Positions 3,018-61,556 are shown, counted from the first letter of the stretch. The stretch is 64,000 bases of DNA from Thermodesulfobacteriota bacterium (GCA_040754335.1 JBFMCV010000005.1:62001-126000), one strand, 5' to 3'. The notes: generated from the letters alone by a model not told the origin. Program-made: numbers and translations.

Positions 3018-4253
3018 TCACTTGCCGTGTAAGGCGAGGTATGCAACATCCCCTACAGAGTCCGCAATCCCGAGACCGAGTTTGTCGGCTTCGAGTATCG
3101 CATTCAACAGAGTCTCCTCCGTGACGTTGAAGGGCTCGTTGTGTATGAAAGGCAATTCGACGGCGGCTTTGCATATCTTGCGAAGCGTTTCCACATCGCG
3201 CGCCGGGTCGAGCGATATTTGATCCAGGTGAAGAGGCAGACCCACCTCGGCGAAGAATGTCCCGACCTTGCGGGCTTCGTCCTCTTTTCCCTCAAGGACG
3301 AGGTGAGTCATGAGACCGATCGCGACCATCTCGCCGTGGAGGTAATTTTTATGTATGGAAGGGATAACGGTGAGGCCCTGAGCGACGCAGTGAGCCGCGG
3401 CGATGCCGCAGCTTTCGAACCCTATTCCGCTCATGAGCGTGTTCGCTTCGACGACGCGCTCGACGGATTCATTTACCTGTGAATCTTTCACAGCTTCGGC
3501 AGCTTTAGCACCGTGGCCGTAGAGCGTATCGGCGCACAGCTCGGCTATGGCGACAGAGGCGATAGTCGGGCGCGTCCCGAGGATCGCTTTCCCTCCGGGA
3601 TTCTGAAAACACGTCCGCGCTTCATACCACGTAGCCATGGCGTCGCCCATGCCGGACACGATGAAACGCACCGGGGCTTCCGCCGCGACTCTCGTGTCGA
3701 CTATAACGAGAGCAGGGTTGAGCGGGTAGAGCTCGACGCCCCGGAATTTACCGTCGGGAAAATATATAGCCGACAATCCCGCGCATGGTGCGTCCGTCGA
3801 AGCCGTCGTGGGACAGATGACAGCAGGCACGGACAGGCGGTAGGCAACCCCCCTCCCCGTATCGAGACACTTTCCGCCGCCGACAGCTACGACCGAATCG
3901 ACAGGAGTTTTCTCTTTCGTTAGGAGCTCGGTCACGCGCCCGATTTCCTCGTACGAGCTCTCCCCCTTAAAGGGGACAAGGGTGAGGGTAATGCCCGAGC
4001 GTTTGAGACTTTCGGCTATCGGTCCGCCGAACCTTCTGTTTCCTCCCTCGGAGATCAGCACCGCGGCGTGCCTGCTGTGGATTAGCCCGAGGTACAGGCC
4101 GAGATCGTTCAGAACCCCGTCTCCCTGTATGTACTTCTGCGGGGAATTGAGCACATTGGGAATGATTTTATTACTGCTTGCCTCGGCGGAGAAAACCTTT
4201 GCCGGTGTAAACGTCTCAGGCGCCGATTTAGTTAATTTCTTAACCCTTCCCAT
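3018..4253 (-). CDS. gldA: Glycerol dehydrogenase (iron-type ADH family)
   Basis: 411 residues, matching NAD-dependent glycerol dehydrogenase, which oxidises glycerol to dihydroxyacetone. The Rossmann part contains VVAVGGGKCLDTGRGVA and PTTASTDAPCAGLSAIYF, whose Asp is the first metal ligand; the metal-binding His residues are in GIAAAHCVAQGL and SIHKNYLHGEMVAIG. A Gly/Glu-rich dimerisation part follows. The length is about 40 residues above the usual 365-370 because of an N-terminal extension of roughly 35 residues before SPQKYIQGDG. The ATG at 4253 has GGGGGAG upstream. It is apparently monocistronic. Physiological substrate specificity within the family cannot be read from sequence alone. 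Confidence 0.9.
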   Translation of the reverse strand: MGRVKKLTKSAPETFTPAKVFSAEASSNKIIPNVLNSPQKYIQGDGVLNDLGLYLGLIHSRHAAVLISEGGNRRFGGPIAESLKRSGITLTLVPFKGESSYEEIGRVTELLTKEKTPVDSVVAVGGGKCLDTGRGVAYRLSVPAVICPTTASTDAPCAGLSAIYFPDGKFRGVELYPLNPALVIVDTRVAAEAPVRFIVSGMGDAMATWYEARTCFQNPGGKAILGTRPTIASVAIAELCADTLYGHGAKAAEAVKDSQVNESVERVVEANTLMSGIGFESCGIAAAHCVAQGLTVIPSIHKNYLHGEMVAIGLMTHLVLEGKEDEARKVGTFFAEVGLPLHLDQISLDPARDVETLRKICKAAVELPFIHNEPFNVTEETLLNAILEADKLGLGIADSVGDVAYLALHGK

Positions 4254-52772: not shown

Positions 52773-52801
52773 TTGACAGTTTATCTCTAAGCCAATATAA
52801 T
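52773..52801 (+). promoter_or_regulatory. Consensus sigma-70 promoter of the metal-island operon
   Basis: TTGACA (52773-52778) and TATAAT (52796-52801) are perfect matches with a 17-base spacer, 45 bases before the fur-family start. The operator palindrome begins inside the -10 box. Confidence 0.85.
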
Positions 52802-52819
52802 TGAGAATCTTTCTCAATT
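52799..52819. promoter_or_regulatory. Fur-family operator
   Basis: AATTGAGAA (52799-52807), TCT, TTCTCAATT (52811-52819) is a perfect 9-3-9 palindrome. Read as 7-1-7 it is TGAGAAT-C-TTTCTCA, the general layout of Fur/Zur/PerR sites. It overlaps the -10 box and the start point, so binding would repress the gene itself and the downstream cluster. Confidence 0.75.
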
Positions 52820-52846: not shown

Positions 52847-53290
52847 ATGAAAACGAAATCGGAAGGGGCCGAGAATCCTGATGATCTGAAGGCGATTTTT
52901 CACGCGAAGAGGCTCAAATGCACGCCCCAGAGGCTGGCCGTGCTCAAAGTGCTCAGGGAAAGCGGGGCCTATTTGTCCATAAACACGCTCGACAAAAGGG
53001 TGAAGGAGCTCCTTCCCGGCACGGGGCTCGCGACCGTGTACAGGGCGTTAGAGACTCTCGAAGACCTCAACCTCGTAGTCAAGGTGCATCTCGAAGACGG
53101 GTGCCACAGCTACGCCGTCGCGCCAGAGGGGCACAGGCACCCGGTAGTCTGCACGGAGTGCAGCAAGGTCATCGAATTCGCCGAGTGCCCGCTAGATACG
53201 CTCTCCGAGAAGCTGTCTAAGGACACAGGGGTACACATTGACAACCATTTCCTTCAGCTCTTCGGGAAATGCAGGGAATGTCAGGCCTGA
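52847..53290 (+). CDS. Fur family transcriptional regulator (probable metal-uptake repressor, Zur- or Fur-like)
   Basis: 147 residues. The winged helix (about 20-85) has CTPQRLAVLKVLRESGAYLS and GTGLATVYRALETLEDLNLV. Two CxxC pairs form the structural zinc site: Cys102/105 and Cys142/145. Candidate sensor ligands are His96 and His98 (GHRHPVVC), Glu, and His130 and His134 (GVHIDNHF). The neighbours are two metal-transport systems, so it likely represses them when the metal is replete; zinc is the best guess, iron or cobalt/nickel is possible. Its operator overlaps its promoter, so it should regulate itself. Confidence 0.92.
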   Translation: MKTKSEGAENPDDLKAIFHAKRLKCTPQRLAVLKVLRESGAYLSINTLDKRVKELLPGTGLATVYRALETLEDLNLVVKVHLEDGCHSYAVAPEGHRHPVVCTECSKVIEFAECPLDTLSEKLSKDTGVHIDNHFLQLFGKCRECQA

Positions 53291-53306
53291 GAAAAGGAAT
53301 AACCAT

Positions 53307-54017
53307 ATGTCTCACATGCACATACCCGACGGGGTCCTCCCCGTCTGGATAGTAACAGCGGGCTGGATAGCGACCGCGATCATACTCTCGTTCTCTATAA
53401 GGAGGGTGGGCGGCATAGACCTCAAGCGCAAGATACCGCTCATCGGCATTATATCGGCGCTCATGATAGTCGGTATGACGCTTGAGATCGTACCGATCGC
53501 ATACCATATCAACCTGACCGTGCTCGCGGGCATCGTGCTCGGTCCCGCGCTCGCTTTCATCGCAGTTTTCATCGTCGATCTGCTCATTTCCATGTTCGGG
53601 CACGGCGGCGTGACAGTAGTGGGATTAAACACGATAATCATAGGGGCTGAAGCGGTGCTGGGTTACTATTTATTTCAATTGTTCAGGGAGGTTATGAGGA
53701 ATAAATCCATTTTCTGGGAATCCACGCTGGCAGCCCTCCTGAGCCTTTTCCTGAGCACTTCGATAATGCTCGGTGTAGTGTACGCGTCCCACGTGAGCCC
53801 GGAGAAGATAGAGGATATAAAACACCTTGTTTCGGGAACGGGCGGCGGGACTGGCGAAATGCAGACACGGGAGGACGGGATTAATTTTCCCAGGTTCGCG
53901 AAGGCGGTCTTCATACTCTGCCCGCTCGGATGGATCCTCGAATCGGTCATAACGGGTCTCGTCGTCAAATATGTATTCCGGGTCAGGCCCGACCTGATCC
54001 TGCCTCAGCAGGCATAG
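53307..54017 (+). CDS. CbiM-type ECF transporter substrate-binding membrane protein
   Basis: 236 residues with about six to seven membrane segments. The N-terminus is MSHMHIPDGVLPVW; CbiM/NikM proteins usually start MHI-P-DG and coordinate the metal with the N-terminal amine, His2 and a later His. Here three extra residues (MSH) precede that motif and add another His. A second conserved His is in DLLISMFGHGGVTVVGLN. I chose 53307 from spacing to AAAAGGAA; an ATG at 53316 would restore the classic N-terminus. It would bind the metal for the CbiQ/CbiO module that follows. No CbiN or CbiL gene is adjacent. Confidence 0.88.
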   Translation: MSHMHIPDGVLPVWIVTAGWIATAIILSFSIRRVGGIDLKRKIPLIGIISALMIVGMTLEIVPIAYHINLTVLAGIVLGPALAFIAVFIVDLLISMFGHGGVTVVGLNTIIIGAEAVLGYYLFQLFREVMRNKSIFWESTLAALLSLFLSTSIMLGVVYASHVSPEKIEDIKHLVSGTGGGTGEMQTREDGINFPRFAKAVFILCPLGWILESVITGLVVKYVFRVRPDLILPQQA

Positions 54018-54026
54018 GGGTTTACA

Positions 54027-54851
54027 ATGGACGTTTCTGCAATCGATTATTATGCAAACCACGGTACGAGCTTCCTCCACGGGGCCCGCGCTGTGTCAAA
54101 AATACTATTCGCCTCGCTCGTTATCGCGTCGGTAGTAATATCAGGGAGCTTCTATCTCCTGCTCGCGGTCTATTTATCTCTTTTAGCGCTGGTGTTTTGG
54201 ACCAGGCTCCCCGTATTAAAGATTGTCACGATCGCCGCATACCCCGCGATTTTCGCTGTCATTTTCGCAGCCGCAAGCTGGAACGGTAGCTTCGTAAGCG
54301 CGGGGGTTATAGTGCTCAAGGCGCTCTGCGCCGCGCTCGCTATGGTCATACTTATAGTCACTACGCCGTATCCCGACGTCTTCTCATCGATCGGGCCGGT
54401 TCTGCCGAGGATCGTCACTGAAGGGCTATTCCTGACGTACAGGTCACTCTTCATACTGCTCGAGCTTACGGACAACCTCATCAAGGGACTCAGGGTAAGG
54501 GGGGGGCTCACTCACGGAAAGTACATCAAAAACGTCGTAAACTTCTCGTCCGGTATAGGGCTGCTCCTCGTGAGGGGGCTCGACCTCTCGGAAAAGTTCT
54601 ACGGGGTGCTTAACATCAGAGGATACGGCGGAAGGATATCGGGCGGAGGGAGGCGCGACAAAACGGGCGTCAACGATTTTACGGCGCTCGCCATCGGCGC
54701 ATTGATATTCGGAGCTGCGATTCTGACGGCAAGGGACGGGGGGCTCCCGACATACGACGTATATATACTCGCACTTTCCGTCAGCGTGCTCATCGTTTCA
54801 GCGGCGTACGCCCTTTTTCAGAAAACCGGGGGAAAAGCTTGGAAGAGATAG
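54027..54851 (+). CDS. ECF transporter transmembrane protein CbiQ
   Basis: 274 residues with several hydrophobic segments, the transmembrane T-component. Diagnostic parts are IDYYANHGTSFLHGARAVSK at the start, and the Ala-Arg-Gly coupling motifs: ELTDNLIKGLRVRGGL and FYGVLNIRGYGGRI, which contact the ATPase. It follows CbiM by 10 bases and overlaps CbiO by 13 bases. Confidence 0.92.
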   Translation: MDVSAIDYYANHGTSFLHGARAVSKILFASLVIASVVISGSFYLLLAVYLSLLALVFWTRLPVLKIVTIAAYPAIFAVIFAAASWNGSFVSAGVIVLKALCAALAMVILIVTTPYPDVFSSIGPVLPRIVTEGLFLTYRSLFILLELTDNLIKGLRVRGGLTHGKYIKNVVNFSSGIGLLLVRGLDLSEKFYGVLNIRGYGGRISGGGRRDKTGVNDFTALAIGALIFGAAILTARDGGLPTYDVYILALSVSVLIVSAAYALFQKTGGKAWKR

Positions 54852-55696
54852 TAAAGGTAAGGAATCTGGGGTTCAGATACCCCGACGGGACGGCGCTCAA
54901 ATTCGACGGGCGCGACTTCTCGGTCGGCAGAGGCGAGCGCGTCGTCATGCTCGGCCCCAACGGGAGCGGGAAATCAACGCTGCTGTCGCTCCTCCTCGGG
55001 CTCCTTAAGCCCTCCGAGGGCGAGATAGAGGTGCTGGGAGTAAACCCTTCGAAGGAGTACGAGAAAATAAGGGAAAGGATAGGGGCGCTGCTTCAGAACG
55101 TAGACCTTCAGATAATAGCGCCAAGGGTGTGGGACGACGTATCATTCTCGCCCAGGAACTACGGATACAAGGAAGAAGAGACGGCTGAGCTCGTGGACGA
55201 TATACTGAAAAAGCTCGAGATCGAGCATTTAAAAGATAAAGTCCCGCATTACCTTAGCGGCGGCGAGAAAACGAAGGTGGGTCTCGCCGGGGCGCTCGTT
55301 ACAAAGCCCGAGCTACTTATACTGGACGAGCCCTTCGAGCACATCGACCCCGCCTGCAGGACCGAGCTTATCAAGCTGCTAAACCGAGTGAACCAGGAAA
55401 ACGGCACCGCAATAATCCTGTCAACCCACAATATGAATACGGTCCCGCTCATCGCGGATACGGTATACTTAATCGCTGAAGGGGGCAGTATCGCGGGGAA
55501 AGGGACGCCCAAAGAGATATTCTCCCAGGTCGAGACCCTCTCCAGATGCCATATCGAGCCCCCGGTGCTGGGAGAGCTGTTCTCGGCGCTCAGGAAGCAA
55601 GGCGTCGAGATGGACGTCTCGCTCACAGTCGATGAAGCTGCTTGTACTATAGCGAACGCAATGGTATTATCGAACAACAAGACAGGCTTGGGATAA
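54839..55696 (+). CDS. ECF transporter ATP-binding protein CbiO
   Basis: 285 residues from a TTG start inside the cbiQ 3' end (13-base overlap). Motifs: GPNGSGKSTLLSLLLGL (Walker A), LLQNVDLQI (Q loop region), LSGGEKTKVGLAGAL (signature) and LLILDEPFEHIDPA (Walker B), then a His in STHNMNT. It energises CbiM-CbiQ import. The stop overlaps the next start (TAATG), continuing the tight operon. Confidence 0.93.
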   Translation: MEEIVKVRNLGFRYPDGTALKFDGRDFSVGRGERVVMLGPNGSGKSTLLSLLLGLLKPSEGEIEVLGVNPSKEYEKIRERIGALLQNVDLQIIAPRVWDDVSFSPRNYGYKEEETAELVDDILKKLEIEHLKDKVPHYLSGGEKTKVGLAGALVTKPELLILDEPFEHIDPACRTELIKLLNRVNQENGTAIILSTHNMNTVPLIADTVYLIAEGGSIAGKGTPKEIFSQVETLSRCHIEPPVLGELFSALRKQGVEMDVSLTVDEAACTIANAMVLSNNKTGLG

Positions 55697-56025
55697 TGGG
55701 CGCTCAAACTGAAAGAAGGAGAAGGCTGTCGGGGACATTCGCCGCAATATTCGCGGCGTTATTCGTCCTTGCCCTGAGTGTCCACAACCATAACTTTAAT
55801 TTCGATCACGGCAAACGGGTATCGCACACAAGCGAATATTCCGGCCACTCGACTGAAACCTGTCCTGCATGCCGCCTCCAGGGACACATAAGGCTCGCTC
55901 ATAGAGACGCCTCATCAGTCCGTATAGACCCCGGCGTCCCTATCGTCTTTTTAACCGAAGAAAGTTTAATCCCTATATCGTTCTTAAAACTAAGTAAACC
56001 GACCCGCTCGCCTCCCGCGGTCTGA
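55696..56025 (+). CDS. Small His/Cys-rich membrane-anchored protein
   Basis: 109 residues. One hydrophobic segment (about 13-29) leads to a likely periplasmic part with histidines at 30, 32, 38, 44, 51, 64 and 69 and a CPAC motif (Cys56-Cys59). The clustering suggests metal binding. Its start overlaps the cbiO stop by one base, so it is translated with the ECF transporter, in the place where CbiN or a similar small subunit is often encoded. It has no obvious CbiN sequence. I do not recognise a named family; it resembles short CPxC proteins near metal-uptake genes (DUF2946-like). Confidence 0.7.
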   Translation: MGAQTERRRRLSGTFAAIFAALFVLALSVHNHNFNFDHGKRVSHTSEYSGHSTETCPACRLQGHIRLAHRDASSVRIDPGVPIVFLTEESLIPISFLKLSKPTRSPPAV

Positions 56026-56032
56026 GCCGATA

Positions 56033-56181
56033 ACCGTCATTCCGGCTTAGGGAGCCGATCCAAACACATTCGAATTTTACATAGTCCGCGCGGTTAGCTC
56101 CGTTAATGACCGCGGGATAAACAATGCGCACCGGAACCGAGCCTTCCCCGCACCATTTTACATCCCCTCCGGAATGACGGT
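56033..56181. repeat. Inverted repeat ACCGTCATTCCGG ... CCGGAATGACGGT
   Basis: Perfect 13-base arms lie at 56033-56045 and 56169-56181 with 123 bases between; the stem extends by CGAT/ATCG across a one-base bulge. The GTCATTCCGG end sequence is like that of common dispersed bacterial palindromic repeats (REP/MITE type). The whole noncoding gap between the small His/Cys gene and the barrel gene is this element. Confidence 0.6.
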
Positions 56182-56223
56182 ATCGAACCCGCTTCGATCC
56201 CATTACATTTTCGGAGGTGAGAT

Positions 56224-57624
56224 ATGGATTTCACAAGAATTATTTTGATACTGGCGATTTTTCTTGCTTCCTCTCCGTTTTTTCAGAGCGATGCCCTCGG
56301 GCAGGAGAGCGACGACGTTAAAAAAGAGCTGCGAGAGCTCAGACAGATGATGGAGAAAATGCAGCAGAGAATCACAGAGCTCGAAGAAAAGAACAAAGCC
56401 CTCGAGCAGCAGGCGAAAGAGAGAGAGGAGGAGGAAGAAATCAAGGAAGAGATAGTGGTGAAAGAAGAAACTGTCGTAACCCCTTCAGCGCCGCAGCCTC
56501 AAGAACCTCAGAGCTTTTTAGGAAAGGTAGCCCAGGCCATTAACCCGGAAATAAGCGTTGTAGGTATTTTTGCGGCCGCTTATTATTCACTGAACGACCC
56601 CGTTGTCTTTGCCGAGATCGATCCCCAGAACACGGGAGTCAACGTGCAGGAAATCGAGATAGGCTTTCAAGCTGTCGTCGATCCTTATTTCAGGTTCGAC
56701 AGCTTCTTCCCGATTACGAACGAAGGGATCGAGATTGAAGAATCGTACGGCACGACTCTTTTCAGTCTCCCTTTGAACTCACAATTCAGAGTCGGTACGA
56801 TGAGGGCGAAATTCGGGAGAATAAACCAGATACACAGACACAACCAGAACTTCGTGACGCTGCCCATAGTAGCCGCTGAATTCTTAGGCGAGCACCTGAA
56901 CCCGACGAGCATCGAGGCTAATTTCCTCGTCCCGGTGCCATGGTACATGGAGCTGAGCGCCTCGGGCGGGAGCCCCGACGTGGAGACACAGACGTTTCAG
57001 AGGAGCCCTGACGCGAACAACATAGGGAACCTCCTCTACATATTCCACATGGCCAACTTCTTCGAAGTGAGCGATTCGCTCGGCGTCAACCTCGGGGCTT
57101 CATTCGCTACGGGCAGCAACGCTTCGGGGCCCGACGAGAGATCGAACCTCTACGGCGCCGACCTCTTCGCGAAATACCGTCCCCTGAGAGACAACCCTTA
57201 CCAGGAATTCTCGGTCCAGTCGGAGTTCATGTGGAGACAGGCCGAAACGCCCGAGGAAGAGCTCGAGGACTACGGCTTTTACGCCGAGGCGATATACAGG
57301 TTCGCCAAGAGGTGGAACACGGGTGTAAGGTTCGATCTAACAGATACTAATACTCCCGTGACGGAAGAGGACGAGGGCGGGGAAGTGATCGAGCAAGCGG
57401 GGATTTCGCAAGTCGCAAGGCAGGAGGAAGAAGAGGAAGAAGGGATGCTGGGACTGCTCGGGAGGGCGTACCGTATTTCTCCGATGCTGACCTTCAGCCC
57501 GAGCGAGTTCTCGAGGATAAAGCTCGAATACGATTATCTCAACCAGAACTATGGGCCCGACCAGCACGCCGTCTTTCTACAGTTTCTCTACGCGATCGGG
57601 GCTCATGGGGCGCACCCATATTAA
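56224..57624 (+). CDS. Outer-membrane beta-barrel protein with N-terminal coiled coil, in metal-uptake operon
   Basis: 466 residues: a signal peptide (1-25), an acidic coiled coil (about 28-80: LRQMMEKMQQRITELEEKNK and a Glu/Lys run), a Pro linker, then a porin-like barrel of about 360 residues ending in aromatic HAVFLQFLYAIGAHGAHPY. His pairs occur in INQIHRHNQNF and at the C-terminus. The coiled coil is typical of trimeric porins that project into the periplasm. It lies between the ECF transporter and the ZnuA-like gene, so it probably carries the metal across the outer membrane. GGAGG precedes the ATG. No TonB box or plug domain is visible. Confidence 0.8.
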   Translation: MDFTRIILILAIFLASSPFFQSDALGQESDDVKKELRELRQMMEKMQQRITELEEKNKALEQQAKEREEEEEIKEEIVVKEETVVTPSAPQPQEPQSFLGKVAQAINPEISVVGIFAAAYYSLNDPVVFAEIDPQNTGVNVQEIEIGFQAVVDPYFRFDSFFPITNEGIEIEESYGTTLFSLPLNSQFRVGTMRAKFGRINQIHRHNQNFVTLPIVAAEFLGEHLNPTSIEANFLVPVPWYMELSASGGSPDVETQTFQRSPDANNIGNLLYIFHMANFFEVSDSLGVNLGASFATGSNASGPDERSNLYGADLFAKYRPLRDNPYQEFSVQSEFMWRQAETPEEELEDYGFYAEAIYRFAKRWNTGVRFDLTDTNTPVTEEDEGGEVIEQAGISQVARQEEEEEEGMLGLLGRAYRISPMLTFSPSEFSRIKLEYDYLNQNYGPDQHAVFLQFLYAIGAHGAHPY

Positions 57625-57648
57625 TGAATTGACAGAGGAGGTCAAAAC

Positions 57649-58632
57649 ATGAAACGGCATACGATACTAAGAAGATTGATCATATGTGTGGCCCTCGCCG
57701 TCGTCTCCGCATTCTTCATGTGCGGAGAAGCCGGGGCGAAGGTGAATATTGTCACCTCCGTCCCCGATTTCGCGGCGATCGCGAGAGAGATCGGGGGAGA
57801 CAAGGTCGATGTGGTGAGCCTGGGGAAGGGTTATCAGGACCCGCACTTCGTCGACGCGAAGCCCGTATACGTGACTAAGCTCAACAGGGCCGACATCCTC
57901 ATCTACAACGGGCTCGACCTCGAATCGGGCTGGCTGCCGATCCTGGTAACAGGCGCGAGGAATTCGAAGATCTCGACGTTGAATTCAGAGGGGAACGTCG
58001 ACGCGTCTACGTTTATAGCCAATGTCCTCGAAGTGCCGACAGGGCCTATAGACAGGTCGATGGGAGACGTACACCCGAGAGGGAACCCGCATTATCTGCT
58101 CGACCCGAGGAACGGCATCCCAGTAGCAAAGGGGATCGCGGCGAAACTTTCGGAAGTCGATCCGGAGAACGCTTCATACTACGATGAGAATTACGAGAAA
58201 TTCGCCAAACTCCTCGAATCGAAGATAAAGGAGTGGGACGAAGAGCTCGCTCCTTATAAGGGGACCGAGATCGTTTCATATCACAAAAATCTCGAATACC
58301 TCTCGGAGTGGGCAGGACTTAAGGAGGTGGGATTCATAGAGCCCAAGCCCGGGATACCGCCGACACCTTCCCACGTCGCGGAGCTGATAAAAAAGATGAA
58401 ATCCATGGACGTGAAGCTCGTCATAGCGTCTAACTACTACCCGCAAAAAACACCTTCGATAATTGCGGAGCAGACGGGCGCCGCGTTTCTTTCCATTCCC
58501 ACGCAGGTTGAAGGAGAGGACGGCATCAACACGTATTTCGATCTCTTCGACGCGATCGTGGGCGAGATCACGGGAGCGCTCAGTGAGAAAAAGGGAGCGG
58601 CGGATCACTCGTATTCAGGCACGGAGGGATAA
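57649..58632 (+). CDS. Metal ABC transporter substrate-binding protein (ZnuA/TroA-like)
   Basis: 327 residues with a signal peptide (1-27). The cluster A-1 binding fold shows likely metal ligands in DPHFVDAKP, NPHYLLDPRNG and ISYHKNLEYL-like segments, followed by GLKEVGFIEPKPGIPPTPSH. It lacks the long His/Asp-rich loop of classical ZnuA, so either zinc or manganese could be bound. It follows the barrel gene by 25 bases. A hairpin (58647-58695) separates it from the ATPase gene, which could let the binding protein be made in excess. Confidence 0.9.
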   Translation: MKRHTILRRLIICVALAVVSAFFMCGEAGAKVNIVTSVPDFAAIAREIGGDKVDVVSLGKGYQDPHFVDAKPVYVTKLNRADILIYNGLDLESGWLPILVTGARNSKISTLNSEGNVDASTFIANVLEVPTGPIDRSMGDVHPRGNPHYLLDPRNGIPVAKGIAAKLSEVDPENASYYDENYEKFAKLLESKIKEWDEELAPYKGTEIVSYHKNLEYLSEWAGLKEVGFIEPKPGIPPTPSHVAELIKKMKSMDVKLVIASNYYPQKTPSIIAEQTGAAFLSIPTQVEGEDGINTYFDLFDAIVGEITGALSEKKGAADHSYSGTEG

Positions 58633-58646
58633 CTCGAGTCGTTCAT

Positions 58647-58695
58647 GCGCAGTCCACTGTGATGCATATCCTTACCGAAACCAGGCGGACTGCGC
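58647..58695 (+). terminator. Attenuator-like hairpin between the binding-protein and ATPase genes
   Basis: GCGCAGTCC (58647-58655) pairs perfectly with GGACTGCGC (58687-58695), a 9-bp stem with a 31-base loop, followed by GTTGATTATT. It lies in the only gap above 90 bases in the transporter part of the island. It may lower transcription of the downstream genes or stabilise the upstream mRNA end. Confidence 0.5.
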
Positions 58696-58728
58696 GTTGA
58701 TTATTCAAGCTTAGCTATAGGAAATAAA

Positions 58729-59466
58729 ATGCGGAATTTGATAGAGCTCGAAGACGCGACGATCGGTTACGAGAACAAGGGAATACTCGGTCCGATAAAT
58801 CTCGCGATAGAAAAGGGCCGGTTCTGGGGAATACTCGGGCCTAACGGCAGCGGGAAATCCACGCTTCTCAGGACAGTCCTCGGCCTCCTGCCGCCGGTCT
58901 CGGGACACGTCAAAACCGCGGACGGCACGGTCTTCGGATACGTGCCTCAGAGCGAGAAGTTCGACCCTATATTCCCCGTATCCGTGGATGAGATGGTGTC
59001 TATGGGGAGATACGTAAGGGTACGGGCGGGAAAAAAGCTTACGTCATCCGACCTCGGCCACGTAACAAGGGCGCTCGAAAAAACAGGGGCTCTCCATCTG
59101 AGAGACCGCACGTTCAGGTCACTATCGGGGGGAGAGAAGCAGAGGGCACTCCTCGCGCGCGCCATTGCCGGCGAGCCCGACGTGCTCGTACTCGACGAGC
59201 CCACTGCGTCAGTGGATATGAAGGGGGAGGCGCAGATAATGGAGCTCGTAGGGAGTATAAGATCGGATGACGGACTAACGGTGCTCATGGTAAGCCATTT
59301 CCTGAACACGGTCGGCAAATATGCCGACAGGATCATGCTGATAGACAAGGACAGCGGATACTTCGAGGCCGGCGATAAAGCTGAAATCCTGACTGACGAT
59401 AACTTAAATAAATTTTTCGGTATAAATGCAGGCGTACGGCGGATCGAGGATTTGAGAGAAATCTAG
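58729..59466 (+). CDS. Metal ABC transporter ATP-binding protein (ZnuC-like)
   Basis: 245 residues. GPNGSGKSTLLRTVLGL (Walker A), LSGGEKQRALLARAIA (signature), VLVLDEPTASVDMKG (Walker B) and a switch His in MVSHFLNTV. It pairs with the permease 20 bases downstream. It energises uptake of the metal bound by the 57649-58632 protein. Confidence 0.93.
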   Translation: MRNLIELEDATIGYENKGILGPINLAIEKGRFWGILGPNGSGKSTLLRTVLGLLPPVSGHVKTADGTVFGYVPQSEKFDPIFPVSVDEMVSMGRYVRVRAGKKLTSSDLGHVTRALEKTGALHLRDRTFRSLSGGEKQRALLARAIAGEPDVLVLDEPTASVDMKGEAQIMELVGSIRSDDGLTVLMVSHFLNTVGKYADRIMLIDKDSGYFEAGDKAEILTDDNLNKFFGINAGVRRIEDLREI

Positions 59467-59485
59467 ACGGACGGGGAAAACACAC

Positions 59486-60340
59486 GTGAGCGCGATATTA
59501 ACGGAATTTATAAACAGCTATTTCCTCTGGCGCGACCCGATGATAGTGGGCGCGGTGTCGGGGGCGGTGTGCGGATTTGTGGGCGTATACGTCGTGCTCA
59601 GGAGAATAATATTCGTAAGCGCCGCGCTCACTCAAATATCGAGCTTCGGCGTGGCCCTGTCATTCTATCTGGAAGGGCTGAGCATGGGCGCCGCCTCGTC
59701 CCTTGTACATCCTTTCTTACTCTCGATCGTGTTCACTTCCCTGGCAGCCGTCTTCTTCGCGGCTAAGAGGGATTTTTCACGTATAAGCCAGGAAGGCGTG
59801 ATCGGGTTCGGGTTTTTAATCGCTTCGGGGGCGGTAATAATCCTGGGAGACAGGATAACCAAAGGCGCTCACGACATCGCGGATATACTGTTCGGCAGCG
59901 CAGTCGTGGTAGACCCGAGGGACGTCTACGTTATTCCTGCTGTCGCTTTGGCTGCTATCGTTATACACATCGTTTACTTTAAAGACTTCGTATTCGTTTC
60001 CTTCGACGAAGAAACGGCGCGGTTATTCAAATACCCCGTGAGGGCGCTGAACACGGCTTTACTCATCACTATCGCGGCCGTGGCCGCCGTCACGACAAGG
60101 GCCCTGGGGGCGCTCCCCGTCTTTGCCTTCCTCGCGCTCCCGCCGCTAACTTCCCTATATCTGACGGAAAGGCTCAGGCTCGTTTTCATATTTTCGGTAA
60201 TTATAGGCGCTCTATCGGCGACGCTCGGATATTTCTTTTCATTCGTATTATCTATCCCGACAGGGGCGTCGATGACGGTATGCGCATCGGTATTTTTCAT
60301 CCTCGGGCTCCTGTGGCGCGAGGTAAAGGTCAGGACCTGA
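59486..60340 (+). CDS. Metal ABC transporter permease (ZnuB-like)
   Basis: 284 residues from a GTG start, with about eight or nine transmembrane segments. It matches the ABC-3 family: GAVSGAVCGFVGVYVVLRRI near the N-terminus and TRALGALPVFAFLALPPLTS near the middle of the C-terminal half. It forms the membrane channel of the metal importer with the ATPase encoded upstream. No stop hairpin is seen before the next gene, 22 bases later. Confidence 0.93.
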   Translation: MSAILTEFINSYFLWRDPMIVGAVSGAVCGFVGVYVVLRRIIFVSAALTQISSFGVALSFYLEGLSMGAASSLVHPFLLSIVFTSLAAVFFAAKRDFSRISQEGVIGFGFLIASGAVIILGDRITKGAHDIADILFGSAVVVDPRDVYVIPAVALAAIVIHIVYFKDFVFVSFDEETARLFKYPVRALNTALLITIAAVAAVTTRALGALPVFAFLALPPLTSLYLTERLRLVFIFSVIIGALSATLGYFFSFVLSIPTGASMTVCASVFFILGLLWREVKVRT

Positions 60341-60362
60341 AAATGCAAAACAGCGAACGAAT

Positions 60363-60869
60363 ATGAGAAACCATGACGCAATCAAAATAACTATCTTTTT
60401 CTACGCACTGTTTTTAATCCCGTCATGCAGCAAGTACGAGAAGGTCGAGGACGACCTGGATTTCCTCAAATACGAGTATTTCACATGCGACGTCGTGAGG
60501 GTCGCTGACGGAGAGAGCTTCTTTTGCCAGCCGCCCGATATGGAGATAGAAAAAATCAGGCTCATAGGGATAAGCGTCCCGGACGAGCGCGAAATCGAGG
60601 CGATGAAGTACTGCGAATCAATACTGAGGAGAGGAACGCTCGTAAAAATAGAGCCCGGGAAAGAATCGAATAGGGGATCAGGCGATATTCCGGCTTACGT
60701 ATTCGTACCCGGAGGGAAGATGCTCAACGTGCTCCTCCTGGAGAAGGGATACGCGGAGCCCGTACTGAACGAGGTAAATGAAAAGTACAGGCACCTGTTC
60801 GTCGCGGCCGAGAAAAAAGAAAAGACCGAAGAGACCGAAAACGAAGATAAGCCGCCCTGGCTCAAATAA
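60363..60869 (+). CDS. SNase (thermonuclease)-like lipoprotein, probably degenerate
   Basis: 168 residues. A lipoprotein signal ends at the Cys of IPSCSK. The nuclease-like fold shows CDVVRVADGESFFC, IEKIRLIGISVPDER and LNVLLLEKGYAEPVL. In active SNases a GR motif before AYVY supplies the second catalytic Arg; here it is GDIPAYVF, so that Arg is missing. The C-terminus is Lys/Glu-rich. It may be a binding domain rather than a nuclease. It follows the ABC permease by 22 bases and so belongs to the same transcript. Confidence 0.8.
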   Translation: MRNHDAIKITIFFYALFLIPSCSKYEKVEDDLDFLKYEYFTCDVVRVADGESFFCQPPDMEIEKIRLIGISVPDEREIEAMKYCESILRRGTLVKIEPGKESNRGSGDIPAYVFVPGGKMLNVLLLEKGYAEPVLNEVNEKYRHLFVAAEKKEKTEETENEDKPPWLK

Positions 60870-61037: not shown

Positions 61038-61556
61038 TTGACGGACAGGAAAAAAATAAAGTGGAACAGGGTGCTGACCAGAACCTTCGTTGTCTTCAGT
61101 ATTATGTTCGTGCCCGCGCTCGGCATACATTACAGGCCGAAACCCGACTTCGATTATTCCACGGTCAATGCTTTTGAGACCGAAAACGGCGCCATAAAAG
61201 CCGACTTCGACTTCCTCGGAGGCTTCGACTACGAAAGGGACGAGAGAATCCCGGAGAAAGTAAAGGAGCTTAACAGTAAGACTGTGAGTGTTACAGGGTT
61301 CATGCTCCCGATCGATTTCGACTCGGACGTGGTCAAGAGCTTCATGCTGCTGAACAACCAGATGGGTTGCTGCTTCGGGGTGATGCCGAGGGTAAACGAA
61401 TTCGTGTACGTGGATATGCCCGAAGGGATAAGTACGAAATACATGACGGACATTCCGCTCAGGGTTACTGGCAGGCTCGAAGTTGTGAAAGGGAACCTAG
61501 TGGGCGGAATATACTCGATGACCGCCGACAAGGTCGAAGCCGTTAATAACTATTGA
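61038..61556 (+). CDS. DUF3299 domain-containing protein
   Basis: 172 residues from a TTG with AAGGGG upstream. A hydrophobic N-terminal segment (about 8-24) suggests export. The family block is SVTGFMLPIDFDSDVVKSFM, LNNQMGCCFGVMPRVNEFV and a later LRVTGRLEVV. DUF3299 proteins lie in zinc-responsive operons in some proteobacteria (for example beside DUF2796-type zinc proteins in pseudomonads). That fits its position just after the metal island, although about 170 bases separate it. The biochemical function is unknown. Its 3' end overlaps the convergent Trm112 gene. Confidence 0.85.
   Translation: MTDRKKIKWNRVLTRTFVVFSIMFVPALGIHYRPKPDFDYSTVNAFETENGAIKADFDFLGGFDYERDERIPEKVKELNSKTVSVTGFMLPIDFDSDVVKSFMLLNNQMGCCFGVMPRVNEFVYVDMPEGISTKYMTDIPLRVTGRLEVVKGNLVGGIYSMTADKVEAVNNY

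Follow-up and report, generated by a model that had tools for sequence, protein, structure and literature searches.

Annotations everywhere treat ECF metal importers as cobalt/nickel transporters, and the locus analyzed here raises the question of whether this holds for a CbiMQO-type transporter whose genes lie between those of a Fur-family regulator and a ZnuABC-like importer. The window (the whole stretch of DNA that was analyzed, 64,000 nucleotides in length) comes from a soil and sediment bacterium of the lineage Candidatus Dadabacteria. A sequence-only reading of the window had suggested that the two importers may serve the same metal, probably zinc. As argued below, we consider it reasonably probable that this Dadabacteria locus serves the response to zinc starvation under a Zur-type regulator and that its ECF transporter carries zinc into the cell.

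Layout and predicted control of the operon

Ten genes on a single strand occupy positions 52847-60869, and a DUF3299 gene follows them (Table 1). The sequence-only reading had described nine tightly spaced genes on one strand; the strand and the extent stand, but the count is ten. Intergenic gaps range from -13 to 24 bases with three exceptions, namely those between the small-protein and barrel genes (198 bases), between the binding-protein and ATPase genes (96 bases) and between the lipoprotein and DUF3299 genes (168 bases). CbiO starts at a TTG codon and overlaps CbiQ by 13 bases, and the start of the small-protein gene overlaps the CbiO stop. For CbiM, a start at an upstream TTG was replaced by the one at 53307. 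The G+C content of each gene is near the window's 53 percent, and thus the operon bears no mark of recent import.

Table 1. Features of the operon and its upstream region (positions within the window)
Feature	Position	Strand	Remarks
Sigma-70 promoter TTGACA-17-TATAAT	52773..52801	+	12/12 matches
Operator AATTGAGAATCTTTCTCAATT	52799..52819	+	21-bp near-perfect palindrome overlapping the -10 box
Fur-family regulator, Zur-like	52847..53290	+	Four structural Cys; GHxH, NHF; extra Cys in DGC, AEC
CbiM-type ECF substrate-binding subunit	53307..54017	+	N-terminus MSHMHIPDG
CbiQ, ECF T component	54027..54851	+	PF02361
CbiO, ECF ATPase	54839..55696	+	Walker A/B and signature motif intact
Small protein, 109 residues	55696..56025	+	One hydrophobic N-terminal segment; HxH, CxxC, C-terminal R[SA]PP; no family
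Coiled-coil N-terminus and probable outer-membrane beta barrel, 466 residues	56224..57624	+	
ZnuA-like metal-binding protein	57649..58632	+	PF01297; His66, His142, His148, His212 invariant
ABC ATPase, AztA/ZnuC-like	58729..59466	+	
ABC-3 family metal permease, ZnuB-like	59486..60340	+	PF00950
SNase-like lipoprotein	60363..60869	+	SNase active-site residues look degenerate
DUF3299 (ZrgE-type) protein	61038..61556	+	Sole part of a Zrg-like module at the window locus

The gap before the barrel gene also holds a 13-bp inverted repeat, ACCGTCATTCCGG/CCGGAATGACGGT, whose arms are 123 bases apart (56033-56181). Its 10-base core occurs three times in the window and three times in 160 kb of loci from the same genome, which partly overlap the window, and its reversed control does not occur in these sequences.

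The 15-mer TGAGAATCTTTCTCA (52802-52816) lies inside the 21-bp near-palindrome that covers the -10 box. When this 15-mer was used as a search pattern with three mismatches it yielded genome-wide noise (4 sites found against 2.2 expected, not significant), and it was replaced by a 21-mer derived from orthologous promoters. With at most three mismatches allowed across the 61 genomes searched, the conserved 21-mer has one site in the 3.26 Mb of its own genome. With a weight matrix the operator scored 37.4; the runner-up in the window reached 9.1, and shuffled windows gave at most 7.7. The element precedes the orthologous regulator in the relatives whose promoter is readable, many of which have the exact palindrome AATTGAGAAANTTTCTCAATT. 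All sites with two or fewer mismatches (families f1, f4 and f7, and genus g15 of family f6) are located ahead of this regulator, and near-identical sites occur once per genome in four Candidatus Dadabacteria families. The Fur-type operator that the sequence-only reading had placed at the head of the operon is therefore a single conserved site kept in relatives, and the regulon prediction proposed there as a check returned it only before the regulator gene. A unique, conserved operator over the -10 box indicates that the operon is most likely repressor-controlled and autoregulated. Elsewhere in the window, at 3478-3492, there is another palindrome, TGTGAATCTTTCACA, that is two mismatches away from the operator core.

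Two observations count against the zinc-operon reading: the operator is predicted to control just a single locus, and it was not linked to any zinc-free ribosomal paralogues. Moreover, the operator is unlike the Zur boxes given in PMC545781 and matches none of the consensuses listed there.

The regulator and the ZnuABC-like importer

The regulator contains a FUR domain (PF01475, 97.5 bits). In an alignment of its orthologues with E. coli Fur, Zur and three paralogues, C102, C105, C142 and C145 are invariant and account for the four structural cysteines. By alignment to E. coli Fur, residues H96, H98, D117 and H134 form a site of the D-site type (His, His, acidic, His); the three histidines are conserved in the orthologues, and L066 has Gly in place of the acidic residue. 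The regulator lacks the cysteine-containing hinge M-site at the position that it has in ScZur; a nearby cysteine in DGC and another in AEC are conserved, the former being lost in L081. A Zur without an M-site is known in Synechococcus, and our naming of Zur-family sites follows the same study (PMC11077047). The regulator is predicted to be of the Zur type and to repress with zinc.

Alternatively, the regulator could be a sensor of iron (Fur) or manganese (Mur-like), in which case the operon would import one of these metals. In sequence searches the regulator comes out closest to Fur/PerR proteins, the operator core TGAGAATCTTTCTCA resembles a Fur box, and systems of the ABC-3/ZnuA type can carry manganese or iron. 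The genome, however, encodes three other Fur paralogues, one with the iron-Fur HHHH motif and one adjoining a Dps-like gene, as well as a second binding-protein/ABC system (L089, G000:C2:141000-160900) consisting of a DtxR-type regulator with a FeoA domain, a binding protein, an ATPase and two ABC-3 permeases, which probably covers manganese or iron. The binding protein of the operon also argues against a role in manganese or iron import. Histidine patterns are characteristic of zinc-binding proteins of this type, and Glu/Asp patterns of manganese-binding ones (the PsaA/ZnuA rule). Here, His66, His148 and His212 are invariant and suggest a three-His site, not His2-Glu-Asp; His212 aligns to Glu205 of the manganese-type PsaA, and Asp280 of PsaA aligns to a variable residue. 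The residue pattern thus appears to be of the zinc rather than the manganese type. As the ZIP, MerC and DUF3299 neighbors described below likewise point to zinc, we regard an iron or manganese operon as improbable.

Together with the ATPase and the permease, the binding protein makes up a full ZnuABC set. The arrangement resembles ZnuABC/AztABC systems under Zur in having these three components and a Fur-family regulator at the head, but differs from them in that an ECF importer, a small CxxC protein and a barrel are encoded in the same operon. For the coiled-coil outer-membrane barrel of the sequence-only reading, matches to the BBP2 and OMP_b-brl profiles give weak support, and the AlphaFold model is poor (mean pLDDT 36). 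For the small protein, no convincing Pfam match was obtained with any of 18 orthologues; its HxH, CxxC and R[SA]PP motifs are conserved.

Locus variants in relatives and the metal they point to

Twelve genomes, from families f1 and f4, keep the series from CbiM to the binding protein without interruption, and where the contig is long enough the series goes on through the ATPase and permease genes. Conservation of the order in relatives, which the sequence-only reading had named as a test, is accordingly found for the regulator, CbiMQO, small-protein, barrel and binding-protein genes. Other relatives have shorter or split versions. The barrel/ABC block is missing from three loci that hold the regulator and CbiMQO (L162, L163 and L113), and two others (L167 and L170) consist of the regulator-CbiMQO unit alone. 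In the f4 genomes G018, G026 and G034, the block of small protein, barrel and ABC genes is located elsewhere, and no operator is present there. This separation of the regulator-CbiMQO half from the barrel-ABC half in several f4 genomes counts against the zinc-operon reading.

The strongest clue to zinc is provided by genome G021, in which a ZIP transporter gene (PF02535) occupies the slot of CbiMQO. There, the same operator is followed by the regulator, ZIP, small-protein, barrel, binding-protein, ATPase and permease genes, and the locus continues with a second ABC pair and DUF3299. A regulator-ZIP unit behind the same operator is also present in G025. Furthermore, MerC occurs in a relative (L084); in G029 it lies between the ATPase and permease genes, CbiMQO being absent. 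The second clue is a Zrg-like module with DUF3299, whose gene in Vibrio is zrgE of the zrg operon, which is Zur-regulated and induced by zinc starvation (PMC9817125). In L067, from the same genus, and in the more distant L083, genes for an ABC ATPase, an FtsX/MacB permease and DUF3299 are located downstream, and L067 additionally encodes a His-rich periplasmic protein. Homologues of this block on a Phaeobacter plasmid are arranged as Fur regulator, DUF2796, ATPase, permease and DUF3299 genes, and the block is the counterpart of the zrg operon. As in the ZrgABCDE system of Vibrio (DUF2796-ABC-DUF3299), DUF3299 adjoins the operon, and in L067 and L083 it is accompanied by an ATPase and a permease; unlike in Vibrio, the window keeps DUF3299 only, and no DUF2796 protein was recognized in the window, L067 or L083. 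Compared with the fuller module of L067, the Zrg-like module looks partly deleted in the genome of the window. The replacement of CbiMQO by ZIP, together with the MerC and Zrg-like/DUF3299 neighbors, points to zinc.

It might be argued that CbiMQO imports nickel or cobalt for ordinary use of these metals and merely shares the operon. Such a role would be expected from the name of the family and from what CbiMNQO usually does, and B12 riboswitches are present in the genomes. Such riboswitches also fit B12 use or salvage, and none of the consumers searched for (urease, NiFe hydrogenase and CbiJ) occurs in any CbiM-bearing relative. Two genomes do contain CbiJ, and both of them are without CbiM. 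Each CbiM-bearing genome has one CbiM. The lack of these nickel and cobalt consumers is a third clue, suggesting zinc by elimination, and we consider an ordinary nickel or cobalt role very improbable. A zinc substrate shared by both importers, as the sequence-only reading had proposed, gains independent support from the ZIP swap, the Zrg-like module and MerC, and further from the missing consumers and the binding-site residues.

The CbiM subunit and the substrate of the ECF transporter

All three ECF components are present (CbiM, PF01891; CbiQ; CbiO, ABC_tran), and models of ECF ATPases match. Homologous to and adjacent like those of CbiMNQO and NikMNQO, they differ from these systems in several respects. 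Firstly, the operon encodes no CbiN, NikKL or other N or K/L accessory subunit. Secondly, in all Dadabacteria members CbiM starts with MSH[MIL]H followed by IPDG or VPDG; related CbiM proteins start with MHIH or MSHxH, and 34 others start with MH or VH. The first two residues of NikM and CbiM, Met1-His2, bind metal (PMC6828968), and the MSH[MIL]H start implies that this site is not at the N-terminus of the Dadabacteria CbiM. Thirdly, the GGT[ST]xH loop of the nickel/cobalt members is absent, and FGHGG is present where most others have FxDGG, a feature that alone is not diagnostic because several other CbiM proteins have HGG. Fourthly, the genomes lack the nickel and cobalt consumers that were searched for. 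Finally, in a tree of 51 CbiM proteins the Dadabacteria members, together with four others that have an HxH start, are separated from all nickel/cobalt-type members by a branch supported at 100/100, long-branch caution applying to L219, L221 and L231/L233. The phylogeny suggested in the sequence-only reading thus sets apart the clade that holds the Dadabacteria members. At the loci of the four CbiM proteins of the clade from outside the Dadabacteria, no zinc neighbors were seen, which counts against the zinc reading. Taken together, these sequence features suggest that the N-terminal metal site of CbiM has been re-tooled from nickel/cobalt towards zinc. We would give even chances to the more general proposition that a CbiM-type ECF subfamily (N-terminal HxHIPDG, GHGG, no CbiN), which arose from the nickel/cobalt line and can swap with ZIP within a Zur operon, imports zinc.

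The main and serious rival is that the operon is indeed a Zur-type zinc-starvation operon, but that its ECF half imports cobalt, which would replace zinc in zinc proteins during a shortage. In Pseudomonas aeruginosa, cobalt uptake is reported to be controlled by Zur and cobalt to replace zinc, and action of cobalt through Zur has been reported in Pseudomonas (PMC13083405). Members of the CbiM family are cobalt/nickel importers (PMC2667541), and the histidine equivalent to NikM His67 is kept in the Dadabacteria CbiM. On the other hand, the Met1-His2 site and the GGT[ST]xH loop of the nickel/cobalt members are missing, and a zinc transporter, ZIP, takes the place of CbiMQO in a relative. The P. 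aeruginosa case is similar in that a non-zinc metal is imported under a zinc-starvation regulator (PMC13083405), but there uptake proceeds via pyochelin and not via an ECF transporter. We therefore consider cobalt import rather unlikely, and roles in iron, manganese or plain nickel/cobalt supply less likely still.

According to the preferred reading, in which the ECF transporter imports zinc, the zinc-loaded Zur-type repressor would bind the palindrome over the -10 box and silence its own very strong promoter, and the operon would open when zinc falls. The outer-membrane barrel would then admit the metal, and the ZnuA-like protein would capture it in the periplasm. Entry across the inner membrane could follow two energized routes: the ZnuBC-like ABC importer, and the CbiMQO-type ECF importer with its altered N-terminal metal site.

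ABC importers, outer-membrane proteins and Zrg modules have all been described in zinc operons before. In the literature searchable outside subscription papers, we found no CbiMQO-type ECF importer with an altered metal site inside a zinc operon and no description of a zinc ECF transporter, and a review of Zur regulons makes no mention of ECF. If the subfamily carries zinc, the cobalt/nickel annotation is wrong for a recognizable sequence class, one more type of energized importer joins those known for zinc acquisition, and the N-terminal metal site becomes a direct way to study how ECF transporters select their metal. Zinc regulation would also be placed in a phylum that has seen scarcely any experiments.

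Some minor observations concern other members of these families. Four CbiM proteins of other lineages (L219, L221, L222 and L223) have an HxHIPDG or HxHLPDG start and are accompanied by CbiQO; those of L222 and L223 have His-rich loops and no accessory subunit. The SNase-like lipoprotein is a conserved member of the operon; it appears to have substitutions at the usual nuclease active-site residues and so may not be a nuclease. At L085 (G031) and in other genomes of genus g10 of family f6, a relative of the binding protein (about 39% identity) is encoded beside a distant barrel gene, and neither the regulator nor CbiMQO accompanies them.
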